Shown here in pieces: positions 59,583 through 63,449 of a stretch of 64,000 nucleotides of DNA; position 1 is the first letter of the stretch, and each line of letters starts with the position of its first letter. The notes beneath the pieces were generated by a model that made no database searches, had not been told where the DNA came from, and worked only from the letters and a program-made list of their open reading frames with translations. The stretch covers positions 612,946 to 676,945 of the forward strand of contig NZ_JARBJP010000002.1 of assembly GCF_029309905.1 (NCBI RefSeq). Direction: 5' to 3'. Both the position numbers and the translations under genes were made by a program. The DNA is from Brytella acorum. Lineage in GTDB: Bacteria > Pseudomonadota > Alphaproteobacteria > Acetobacterales > Acetobacteraceae.

Positions 59583-60179
59583 ATGAGCACGCCCCGTATC
59601 GCCCGGCAGCACCGGGTCACGAGTGAAACCGACGTCATGCTGACGCTCTGCCTGGACGGCAACGGCTCGGCGGAAATCGACAGTGGCATCGGGTTTTTCG
59701 ACCATATGCTGACAGCCCTGACCAAACACGGCAGTTTCGATCTCGAACTGCGTTGCGTGGGCGATCTGCACATTGACGGTCACCATACCGTCGAGGATAT
59801 CGGCATCGCGCTGGGCAAGGCGTTTGCGCTGGCCCTTGGCGACAAACGCGGGATCACCCGTTTCGGCCATGCGCTGGTGCCGCTGGATGAAGCATTATGT
59901 GAAGCTGTGGTTGACGTTTCGGGCCGCCCTTATCTCGCTTGGAACGTTGAATTTCCGCGCGAAAAGATCGGCGAGATGGATACCGAGCTGTTCGAGGAGT
60001 TCTACCGGGCATTCGCCATGGCATCGTCACTGACGGTGCACATGACATGCAAGGCTGGCCGCAACGCCCATCACATCGCCGAAAGCGGCTTCAAGGCCTT
60101 CGCGCGTGCCTTGCGCATGGCGGTATCGGCCGATCCCCGGGCAGGCAACATGATACCTTCGACGAAAGGCGTCCTGTGA
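59583..60179 (+). CDS. hisB: Imidazoleglycerol-phosphate dehydratase
   Basis: 198 residues, monofunctional. GSAEIDSGIGFFDHMLTAL and HHTVEDIGIALGKA carry the metal histidines; DVSGRPYLAWN and FFRAFAMASSLTVHMTCKAGRNAHHIAESGFK-type blocks complete the family pattern. It dehydrates imidazoleglycerol phosphate in histidine synthesis. It is first in the his run, and its TGA overlaps the hisH GTG (GTGA). Confidence 0.96.
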   Translation: MSTPRIARQHRVTSETDVMLTLCLDGNGSAEIDSGIGFFDHMLTALTKHGSFDLELRCVGDLHIDGHHTVEDIGIALGKAFALALGDKRGITRFGHALVPLDEALCEAVVDVSGRPYLAWNVEFPREKIGEMDTELFEEFYRAFAMASSLTVHMTCKAGRNAHHIAESGFKAFARALRMAVSADPRAGNMIPSTKGVL

Positions 60180-60844
60180 GTCTCACGCCCACCCACTCCC
60201 GCAACAGGCCCGTCGTCGTCATCGATTACAATGGCGGAAATCTGGCGTCGGCTGCCCAGACCGCACGTCGCGCCGTGGCGGATCTCGGGCTTGAGCAGGA
60301 CGTCGTCATCAGCGCGGACCCCGAGGTGGTTCGCGCCGCAGACCGTATCATTCTCCCCGGACAGGGCGCTTTCGCTCACTGCGCCGAGGGGCTGGGGTCC
60401 GGTCTTCGTCTTGCGCTGGAAGAGGCGACATCCGCGGGAACGCCTTTTCTCGGCATTTGTGTCGGCATGCAGTTGATGGCGCATTGGGGTTTGGAACACG
60501 GTCGGACAGCGGGGCTTGGGTGGATAAAAGGTGAAATCGCCCCCATGGAGGAGGCCGCGGCGCAAGGGCTGCGTCTGCCGCATATGGGGTGGAACGAGCT
60601 TGATTTCGTTCCCGGCGCACATCCTCTTACCGAGGGTCTCAAACCCGGCTGCCACGGCTATTTTGTTCATTCCTATGCCCTGCGCGCCGGAGATCCGGCC
60701 GATCTCGTGGCAAGCGCCGTCTATGGTGGAAATGTTCCGGCCATCGTCGCGCGGCGCAATCGCTGTGGAACGCAGTTCCATGTCGAGAAAAGCCAGCGCG
60801 TCGGTCTGCGCATCATGGCGAACTTCCTTCGCTGGCAGCCATGA
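60176..60844 (+). CDS. hisH: Imidazole glycerol phosphate synthase, glutaminase subunit
   Basis: 222 residues from GTG 60176. Class I glutamine amidotransferase: the nucleophile Cys is in FLGICVGMQLMAHW, the His in GTQFHVEKSQRVG and Glu two residues later. VIDYNGGNLASAAQ is the family start. It supplies ammonia to HisF. A longer open frame upstream is hisB read out of phase. Its end overlaps the next ATG (60841) by four bases. Confidence 0.95.
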   Translation: MSLTPTHSRNRPVVVIDYNGGNLASAAQTARRAVADLGLEQDVVISADPEVVRAADRIILPGQGAFAHCAEGLGSGLRLALEEATSAGTPFLGICVGMQLMAHWGLEHGRTAGLGWIKGEIAPMEEAAAQGLRLPHMGWNELDFVPGAHPLTEGLKPGCHGYFVHSYALRAGDPADLVASAVYGGNVPAIVARRNRCGTQFHVEKSQRVGLRIMANFLRWQP

Positions 60845-62169
60845 ATATCACCGCCAATCGCGTCACCAGACTGTCCGAAGATGATCTCGGCGCCCTGTGC
60901 GAGGCCGCGACGGCGGCGATCCTGGGCGGTGGAGGTTTCGGGTGGCTGGAACCGCCGCCGCGCAATGTGCTGGAGCGCTACTTCCAGGGGCTTCTCCTCG
61001 TTCCGGAAGCGAGTCTGTTCATCGTGCGTGAAAGTGGCGTCATCCAGGGCGCGGCCGTCCTGACGCGCCCTTCCCGGCATAACGAAGTTCAGGCCATGAG
61101 TGCGCATATTTCGGGCTTTCACGTTGCGCCCTACATGCGCGGACGGGGGCTCGGACATGCGCTGCTGGCAGATGTCGTGGATTACGCGCGCGGTACCGGA
61201 TGCCGCGTTCTGAATTGCGATATTCGCGAGACGCAGAGCCAGGCCATTGCGTTGTTTCGTACCTTCGGCTTCGAGGAATGGGGAACGCATCCCTATTATG
61301 CGCGGGTGCATGGTGAGACGGTTCGAGGGCTTTATCTCGTGAAGCTTCTCGATGCTGATGGCGCCCTGAACCGCGAGACTCATGCAACGACAGGAAAGGA
61401 TACGGCCTCCGTGACCCAGCTTCGACGCGATGGGCTCATGCTCTATCCGGCCATCGATCTCAAAGGGGGCGCGTGCGTGCGCCTGCGTCGTGGCGATATG
61501 GAAGACGCGACGCATTACTCGGACGATCCGGCGGCGCAGGCGCGCAGCTTCGTGGATGCGGGATGCCGCCATCTGCATGTCGTGGACCTGGATGGCGCCT
61601 TTGCCGGGCAATCCGCCAATATCGATGCGGTCAAGGCGATCGTGAAAGCCTCGAGCGTTCCGGTTCAGCTCGGCGGCGGGATTCGGGATATCGCGGCGAT
61701 CGAGCGGTGGCTGGATGCCGGCGTCGCGCGGGTCATTCTTGGTTCCGTCGCGGTCAAGAATCCGGATCTTGTCCGTCAGGCCTCGCGCGCGTTTCCGGGC
61801 AGGATCGTTGCGGGCATCGATGCCCGTGATGGCAGGGTCGCCACTGAAGGATGGGCGGAAATCTCGGATATCACCGCGATCGATCTGGCGTGCCGGATGG
61901 AAGATGCCGGTGTAGCGGCCATCATCTTCACGGAAATCTCGCGTGACGGCATGCTGGAAGGGCTGGATCTCGAACAGACGTCGGCGCTCGCCGATGCCGT
62001 TTCTCTTCCGGTGATTGCAAGTGGCGGCGTGGGAAGCGTGACGCATCTTCAGGCATTGCGTTCGGTCGCGCGACGCTCGCCCGGCATAAGGGGGGTTATC
62101 GTCGGACGAGCGCTTTATGACGGGCGCGTGTCCGTGCAGGAAGCGCTCGCCGCGCTGGAAGTGGCCTGA
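60841..62169 (+). CDS. hisA: In-frame fusion of GNAT N-acetyltransferase and HisA isomerase
   Basis: 442 residues, one unbroken frame. Residues 1-170 are a GNAT acetyltransferase: [20 protein letters not shown] is motif A for acetyl-CoA, and [20 protein letters not shown] is motif B. A linker of about 20 residues ([17 protein letters not shown]) joins it to a full His[11 protein letters not shown] with catalytic Asp206, [35 protein letters not shown] and IASGGVGS. HisA isomerises ProFAR to PRFAR. A possible internal start, GTG 61411, has GGAAAGGA ten bases upstream, so free HisA could also be made. Starts inside hisH, ends in the hisF ATG (TGATG). Confidence 0.9.
61393..61413 (+). promoter_or_regulatory. 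Possible internal ribosome site and start for stand-alone HisA
   Basis: GGAAAGGA at about 61393-61400 followed ten bases later by GTG 61411, in frame with HisA ([17 protein letters not shown]). A normal HisA of about 252 residues would result. It may be a remnant of a separate hisA start or a working second start within the fusion. Confidence 0.45.
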
Positions 62170-62930
62170 TGTTGAAACTGCGTGTCATTCCCTGCCTGGA
62201 CGTCAAGGACGGTCGCGTCGTCAAGGGAGTCAACTTCGTCTCGTTGCGCGATGCCGGTGACCCGGTCGAGCAGGCCGCGCTCTATGACGCCGCTGGCGCG
62301 GACGAACTGACCTTCCTTGATATTACCGCCAGCGTGGAAAACCGCGACACCATTCTGGATGTCGTTCGACGTACCGCCGAAAGGGTATTTCTTCCCTTGA
62401 CGGTTGGTGGGGGCGTTCGCAGCCCCGAAGACATGCGTCGCCTGCTTCTTGCCGGTGCGGATAAATGCGCGATCAACTCCGCCGCCGTCACGAACCCTGA
62501 CCTTGTCAATCAGTCCGCCGACCGCTTTGGCAGCCAGTGCATCGTGGTCGCCATAGATGCGCGTTCGGACGGCCGTGGAGGCTGGGAGGTCTATACCAAA
62601 GGCGGTCGCAAGCCGACCGGCCTCGATGTGATCTCATGGGCCCGGCAGGTTCAGGAACGCGGCGCTGGTGAAATCCTGCTCACCAGTATGGATCGGGATG
62701 GGACCGGTGACGGCTTCGATCTTGCTCTGCTGAAAGAGGTTTGCTCTCACGTCCAGATCCCGGTGGTCGCATCCGGCGGTGTCGGCACGATCGATCATTT
62801 CGTGGAAGGCGCACGCGCGGGCGCAACGGGCCTTCTGGCAGCCAGCGTCTTTCATTTTGGAACCTTCCGCATCGATGTCGTCAAACGAACCCTGGCAGAC
62901 GCCGGTTTGCCCGTGCGGGTTGGGGACTGA
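62169..62930 (+). CDS. hisF: Imidazole glycerol phosphate synthase, cyclase subunit
   Basis: 253 residues, TIM barrel. Asp11 in [15 protein letters not shown] and the second catalytic Asp in [29 protein letters not shown] and [12 protein letters not shown] are phosphate-binding loops. It combines PRFAR with HisH-derived ammonia. ATG overlaps the GNAT-HisA stop. Confidence 0.97.
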
Positions 62931-63002
62931 TATTCCAGCTTTGACGTTCAGGGCGACTTCATCGACACTGATTTGTTCATACGCCCCAGCAGGAGATTGA
63001 CG

Positions 63003-63449
63003 TTGGCCAAAGCCGCCCCCAAGCATGTCGCGCCCAAAGTTGAAAAGCCGAAGCTTCGCAAGCCAAAGACCGTCAAGAAACTCGCCATCAAGAAGTCGCC
63101 CACCGATGCTTTATTGATTGACGCCCATGTGCTGGATCGCCTTTTCAGCACAGTCGTGGCGCGTCGGACCGCGGACCCGGCTCACAGTCATTCCGCCCGG
63201 TTGCTTTCCAGAGGCACGCGCAAGGTCGCGCAAAAATTTGGGGAAGAGGCCGTCGAATGTTTGATCGAGGCGGTTGCGGGTAATAAGCGGGAACTCGTCG
63301 GAGAAAGCGCGGACGTTCTCTACCATCTTATCGTGATGTGGGTTGACGCTGGCCTTCAACCCATGGAGATCTGGCAGGAGCTTCAACGTCGTGAGGGTGT
63401 CAGCGGCGTCGCAGAAAAAGCGTCTCGTCCAGCAACTTCCGGCATTTGA
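63003..63449 (+). CDS. hisE: Phosphoribosyl-ATP pyrophosphatase HisE with Lys-rich N-terminus
   Basis: 148 residues starting at TTG 63003 with AGGAG seven bases upstream (62991-62995). Residues 1-33 are a Lys/Pro/Ala-rich extension ([16 protein letters not shown] and KKLAIKK) absent from most HisE proteins. The all-alpha MazG-like domain follows, with [17 protein letters not shown] and [13 protein letters not shown] holding the metal glutamates and aspartate. It hydrolyses PR-ATP to PR-AMP. It follows hisF by 72 bp. HisI is not in this window. Confidence 0.92.

Follow-up and report, generated by a model that had tools for sequence, protein, structure and literature searches.

An acetyltransferase fused to HisA within the his operon

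The 64,000-nucleotide stretch of Brytella acorum (Acetobacteraceae; contig NZ_JARBJP010000002.1, positions 612,946 to 676,945) that was analysed here, referred to as the window, contains a histidine biosynthesis (his) operon in which a single gene encodes a GNAT acetyltransferase domain joined through a linker to HisA. A first-pass annotation made from the sequence alone had proposed a true in-frame fusion, and we indeed find that the frame is open throughout and that both domains are complete (Table 1). The Pfam family Acetyltransf_1 (PF00583) matches residues 48-144 of the fusion with 52.2 bits (cut-off 20.7), and His_biosynth (PF00977) matches residues 201-430 with 273.3 bits (cut-off 23.6). 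Besides scoring above the Pfam cut-off, the N-terminal half has a predicted GNAT fold and a motif A, R100-G-R-G-L-G105, that fits the acetyl-CoA motif R/Q-x-x-G-x-G/A, placing it in the GNAT superfamily. The C-terminal half is HisA by curated score over the whole profile, with 259.7 bits against a cut-off of 228.95 for TIGR00007 and positions 1-231 of 231 spanned. Asp7 and Asp176 have a catalytic role in Salmonella enterica HisA. These key aspartates, which are named in PDB titles, are matched in the window protein by Asp206 (position 7 counted from Met200) and Asp369 (in SRDG), and both residues are, like Asp327, invariant across 62 fused proteins.

In an AlphaFold2 model of the full fusion, the mean predicted local distance difference test (pLDDT) score was 88.1 and the predicted template modelling (pTM) score 0.58, with residues 174-195 below a pLDDT of 50, so that two folded domains on a flexible tether are predicted, in a relative placement that the model does not fix. 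Because the 50 matches listed in a fold search with the whole model were all HisA and HisF structures, the GNAT domain was also modelled by itself, giving a mean pLDDT of 93.3 and a pTM of 0.89.

The operon runs in the order hisB, hisH, fusion, hisF, hisE, and a HIT gene comes next. The hisB stop overlaps the likely GTG start of hisH by 4 nt, the hisH stop TGA overlaps the ATG of the fusion by 4 nt (ATGA), and the fusion stop overlaps the hisF ATG by 1 nt (TGATG); these overlaps suggest that translation of the whole hisB-to-hisF core (59583-62930) is coupled. The GC content at third codon positions is 0.68 in the GNAT, 0.61 in the linker and 0.70 in HisA, and these values for the window gene give no sign of a foreign origin of any of the three parts. 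As a side observation, the listed hisE frame, which has a TTG start, carries about 50 lysine-rich residues ahead of the phosphoribosyl-ATP pyrophosphohydrolase (PRA-PH) domain, reflecting either a wrong start or a genuine extension.

Table 1. Features of the fused gene and its operon in the window.
Feature	Coordinates	Strand	Basis
hisB	59583..60179	+	NCBIfam NF002109, 292.7 bits (cut-off 278)
hisH	60176..60844	+	open frame; tblastn to the same place in relatives; GTG 60176 is our reading of the start
GNAT-HisA fusion	60841..62169	+	single open frame from ATG to TGA, 442 aa, zero internal stops
GNAT domain, residues 1-171	60841..61353	+	Pfam PF00583; AlphaFold2 model
Linker between GNAT and HisA	61354..61437	+	residues 174-195 predicted disordered, pLDDT under 50
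GGAAAGGA (61393-61400) and GTG 61411-61413, possible internal start of free HisA	61393..61413	+	sequence reading
Complete HisA domain from Met200	61438..62169	+	TIGR00007, 259.7 bits; invariant aspartates
hisF	62169..62930	+	TIGR00735, 349.5 bits (cut-off 294.55)
hisE	62973..63449	+	NF001613, 151.5 bits (cut-off 120)

The fusion is clade-wide in acetic acid bacteria

Whether the fusion is clade-wide, a question that the first-pass annotation had left to a search for the two-domain architecture in relatives, can be answered in the affirmative for the acetic acid bacteria. A single uninterrupted match across both domains was found in at least 86 of 397 genomes of the family, a lower bound since three genomes with long linkers (G013, G094 and G095; G and L numbers are our labels for genomes and loci) were seen to be fused only at the locus level. 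In a protein search, every one of the best 120 of 8000 scored matches spans 95-100% of the query; among these 120, many bear the source name HisA isomerase and four are called 'fusion protein' (one from Neokomagataea, one from Asaia, two from Gluconacetobacter). The window protein itself falls in a 90% identity cluster of 2 members on 2 contigs. A search with the GNAT alignment gave 80 named loci, those nearest to the window's GNAT and not a census; hisA is present in 73 of them, with no hisA match in 7. The fused state occurs in 50 of these 73 loci (23 are not fused), among others in Gluconobacter, Asaia, Swaminathania, Tanticharoenia, Komagataeibacter, Novacetimonas, Gluconacetobacter and most Acetobacter. 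With such coverage in the protein search and so many loci fused, the arrangement is due neither to chance nor to a sequencing slip.

The GNAT is an old neighbour of hisA

In the remainder of the family, as in further families of its class (Alphaproteobacteria, judged by the named relatives), the GNAT is a gene of its own in the order hisB-hisH-GNAT-hisA-hisF-hisE, which bears out the earlier proposal that a GNAT gene is a member of the his operon. Using a GNAT profile at E <= 1e-25, we obtained a match in 96 of 241 genomes of the class, one match in each. The GNAT lies directly before hisA in 84 of the 96 (the window's own genome included; 35 cases come from fetched loci and 49 from coordinates compared by eye). 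In one genome counted among the 84, G467, the neighbour after the GNAT is only 41% HisA-like. Four genomes have the GNAT after hisH and hisA displaced, either 0.4 or 1.2 kb off (G641, G581), on the opposite strand (G508) or elsewhere (G090), and in eight neither hisH nor hisA was found beside the GNAT. Split GNAT/hisA pairs are close, overlapping by 4 nt in 14 of 58 and by 1 nt in 9 of 58 if hisA is taken to begin at the start codon closest to the GNAT stop, a choice that favours overlap. (From these spacing counts, as from the start-codon, ribosome-binding energy and GNAT residue counts below, 27 loci duplicating others in HisA and HisF were omitted.) A phylum search gave the GNAT in 15 of 299 genomes, all in the window's class among the matches listed, a listing that shows same-class genomes only and does not give the number of the 299 outside the class, so that it carries little weight for other classes; a search of plasmids gave no match. 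Because the same GNAT stands elsewhere as a separate gene directly before hisA, we read the fusion as a merger of old operon neighbours.

Fusion and splitting appear to have occurred repeatedly. A tree of HisB, HisH, HisA and HisF, calculated by a quick method from 75 of 124 distinct rows, needs 7 changes of the fused state; the tree counts changes, while the direction of each is what we infer. It leaves out close fused relatives, some split outgroups and L057 (G248), which has no usable hisF at the locus. Six split Acetobacter rows (A. okinawensis, A. lovaniensis, A. fabarum, A. lambici, A. syzygii and a metagenome-assembled genome) form one 100-starred clade nested in a 99-starred group with four fused rows. 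The spacing is identical in all six, with a 4-nt ATGA overlap between GNAT and hisA in A. okinawensis (L071), and we read the Acetobacter split as one fission inherited by the six rows. Acidomonas methanolica, which is split (GTGA), is grouped (95-starred) with 8 fused rows, one of them the window's, and the fusion has apparently been undone again there. Outside the tree, G248 is fused, with a strong Shine-Dalgarno (SD) sequence and an ATG at the junction, while 8 other genomes of its genus gave no uninterrupted two-domain match; this seems to be a separate fusion event. Judged from these sequences, the fusion apparently arose more than once.

Both halves are constrained and the linker mostly evolves fast

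The ratio of nonsynonymous to synonymous divergence (pN/pS) over 21 pairs was 0.08-0.38 for the GNAT and 0.04-0.23 for HisA, values that are rough since synonymous sites are near saturation. In 16 of 17 pairs the linker had a higher ratio than the GNAT, the one exception being at 0.06, and three Asaia/Swaminathania pairs had 0.5-1.3 in the linker and 0.09-0.13 in the GNAT. These ratios point to purifying selection on both GNAT and HisA, and to a linker that is mostly fast-evolving.

Within the GNAT, conservation of W35, R63, R100 and G103 extends to nearly every group compared, the eight GNATs without his neighbours included, and P55, E82 and Y153 are likewise kept with more exceptions (lineage labels in this comparison are our own, and L015 was omitted). 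Motifs such as GGGFGW, RPPRNNEAQ, RETQ and WGTHPxY are shared, and the acceptor-side motifs change in Gluconobacter, in Bombella-like rows and in L067/L075. All 12 window-clade rows have R100 and G103; L010 and at least one of L067/L075 have changes there. In the fused L010 (G013), where motif A carries the changes R100 to Q and G103 to S, the GNAT is likely inactive yet still attached to HisA.

A possible internal start for free HisA

The first-pass annotation had also raised the possibility of two products. In that case ATG 60841 would start the fusion and GTG 61411 (or the second candidate start, ATG codon 200 at 61438-61440) a free HisA, leaving HisA in excess; this would supplement our interpretation of the fusion, not displace it. 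The SD-like site on which the suggestion was built does exist, 10 nt from the GTG, and in the Asaia group AAGGA with GTG or TTG is kept at one aligned place within an otherwise variable linker. The predicted SD energy is -5 kcal/mol or better in 8 of the 11 loci of the window clade (mean -5.5, versus -3.0 for codon-shuffled linkers), and in the Komagataeibacter/Gluconacetobacter group (20 loci), which shares a GTG 7 codons before HisA, the mean is -4.2 versus -2.3 for shuffles. In Acidomonas, too, a GTG (as GTGA) lies at roughly this position and would serve as the start of the separate HisA.

The codon shuffles, however, weaken the impression left by the conserved site. The window's SD is equalled or beaten by 24% of shuffled linkers (p = 0.24), and p <= 0.05 is reached in only 2 of the 11 window-clade loci and in 0 of the 20 Komagataeibacter/Gluconacetobacter loci, all statistics on related species that share ancestry. 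An equally good upstream energy is found at 22.9% of 1801 start-like codons inside HisA; 41% of 126 hisF starts have such energies. Furthermore, the linker of 7 out of 77 distinct fusions has no ATG, GTG or TTG, so that in these HisA would be made only via the fusion, barring initiation at a rarer codon. For the window's species, a free HisA translated from GTG 61411 is thus a possibility with weak support, and on the whole we doubt that two products are made.

GNAT and histidine genes come apart in some genomes

In three genomes (G273, G233 and G070), HisA scores over the cut-off and the GNAT is absent at E <= 1e-10. The loci of the first two, L069 and L072, come from small genomes and are placed among Gluconobacter and Acetobacter rows, and we read a short stretch ahead of HisA in G273 as a linker remnant. 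In G149 the GNAT is missing and the HisA match broken.

Conversely, the GNAT occurs without hisH or hisA beside it in G428, G525, G594, G485, G493, G571, G564 and G629 (loci L207-L209 and L211-L215). It lies near hslV/hslU in 6 of these 8 and near a HIT gene in 5, and hslV/hslU and HIT also flank the whole his operon in several relatives. As an indirect look for a rhizobial acetyltransferase gene that lies between hslV and hslU, the short loci of the weak GNAT matches were inspected and contained no hslV or hslU. In seven of the eight genomes, hisB and hisF lie elsewhere, on the same contig or another; in four of the seven, hisB is a long frame of 550-582 aa like that of hisNB-type genes, to which these frames presumably belong. 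Because hisB and hisF are present elsewhere in them, these seven show only that adjacency is dispensable. In the eighth, G485, which is listed as 100% complete yet consists of about 90 contigs, hisB and hisF gave no match, and TIGR00007 matched only below its cut-off. With HisA but no GNAT in at least three genomes, and the GNAT but not the histidine genes sought in one draft genome, we take the roles of the two halves to be separable, within the limit set by the single G485 case.

Discussion

The most probable interpretation, in our view, is that the gene is a clade-wide fusion of neighbouring his-operon genes that yields two independent enzymes on one chain and adds no acetylation step to histidine synthesis; the independence is likely given that in some relatives one half is found and the other is missing. 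The fusion would have formed by loss of the stop codon that separated two genes lying end to end or overlapping, together with a shift of frame where needed. HisA would keep its usual isomerisation of N'-[(5'-phosphoribosyl)formimino]-5-aminoimidazole-4-carboxamide ribonucleotide (ProFAR), and the GNAT would acetylate a small amine-bearing molecule using acetyl-CoA. Any benefit would at most lie in making both proteins in equal amounts by co-translation, and it may be nil.

Sequence searches aimed at the substrate of the GNAT gave no clear pointer. NCBIfam gave only GNATs under their cut-offs, with no equivalog reached, and PDB sequence searches with the GNAT returned many GNATs and no clear winner. 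Its fold match is high to the tabtoxin resistance protein (1ghe) and to acetyltransferases of the phosphinothricin/YncA type, with about 14-22% identity in the alignments. Relative to HisA/PriA ProFAR isomerases (TIGR00007, PF00977), the full domain and key aspartates are kept, while the N-terminal GNAT and the linker are extra.

Several points weigh against two independent enzymes. RimI-type protein acetyltransferases fit the GNAT fold nearly as well. The case of a GNAT without histidine genes comes from a single draft genome, G485, the sole representative of its family compared, and the other seven displaced GNATs still share a cell with a his operon. As the queries for neighbours in all eight loci were the window's own proteins, very divergent his genes may be missed. 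G029 and G139 have neither a HisA over the cut-off nor a GNAT, which fits independent as well as coupled halves. Finally, adjacency is very stable, and the fusion has lasted through most of the acetic acid bacteria seen. A conserved neighbourhood often means shared function.

The first-pass annotation had suggested that the fusion could couple histidine synthesis to acetylation. The GNAT would then be a working or regulatory part of the pathway, acetylating an intermediate, a by-product or an enzyme, and its fusion to HisA would improve the coupling. The position directly before hisA in 84 of 96 genomes, the close or overlapping genes, the purifying selection on the GNAT and the his genes still present in seven of the eight genomes with a displaced GNAT all count in favour of such a role. 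The genome comparison nevertheless speaks against it, in that HisA persists without the GNAT in G273, G233 and G070, 145 of 241 class genomes lack such a GNAT at the cut-off used, many of them having hisA, and eight genomes keep the GNAT away from hisH and hisA, one of them having no hisB or hisF match. A step in the histidine pathway is thereby made unlikely, although not rejected. An assembly that missed a stop or frameshift, for which nothing in the window speaks and which has a counterpart only in the one draft genome of Asaia astilbis (L098; GNAT and HisA out of frame, unlike in other Asaia seen, possibly by sequencing error), was rejected, as the fusion is spread over too many family genomes, named loci, genera and projects.

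Fusion of a GNAT to an amino-acid biosynthetic enzyme has a parallel in argH(A), in which argininosuccinate lyase is fused to the GNAT N-acetylglutamate synthase. There the GNAT performs a step of the same pathway, whereas our genome comparison argues against this for the GNAT fused to HisA. Gene fusions within the his operon are well represented by hisNB, hisIE, hisHF (HIS7) and HIS4, some of which arose after approach and overlap of the genes (PMC1963479, in its available part, which treats these together with hisA/hisF). The available part of PMC10138114 names seven his genes with fusions, hisA not included, and in these parts of the two papers no fusion of hisA to an extra-pathway gene is named. 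In hisNB, hisIE, hisHF and HIS4 the joined partners are histidine enzymes, whereas here the partner is a GNAT that also occurs away from histidine genes. Among the literature matches listed, no title or abstract opening pointed to a GNAT-HisA fusion or to a GNAT in the his operon. The mechanism of the merger would be ordinary and the partner unusual, and the merger is apparently reversible.

A broader proposal, about which we are slightly more hesitant than confident, is that the GNAT represents an undescribed single-copy acetyltransferase family that has an orphan reaction of its own, keeps its place between hisH and hisA in many alphaproteobacterial families and is able to outlive the operon. 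In acetic acid bacteria it would have captured HisA, which in some species (the Gluconobacter types without a start codon in the linker) would have become an obligatory tail of the acetyltransferase. The his operon is a textbook model for the evolution of operons and fusions, and it is common practice to deduce a shared function from gene fusion. Here one family shows separate genes, fusions, splits nested among fusions and lost partners, with a partner that looks foreign to the pathway, and because all these states occur together, the inference from fusion to shared function is directly testable in it. The comparison also points to a conserved acetyltransferase family that databases file under the name of HisA when it is fused.
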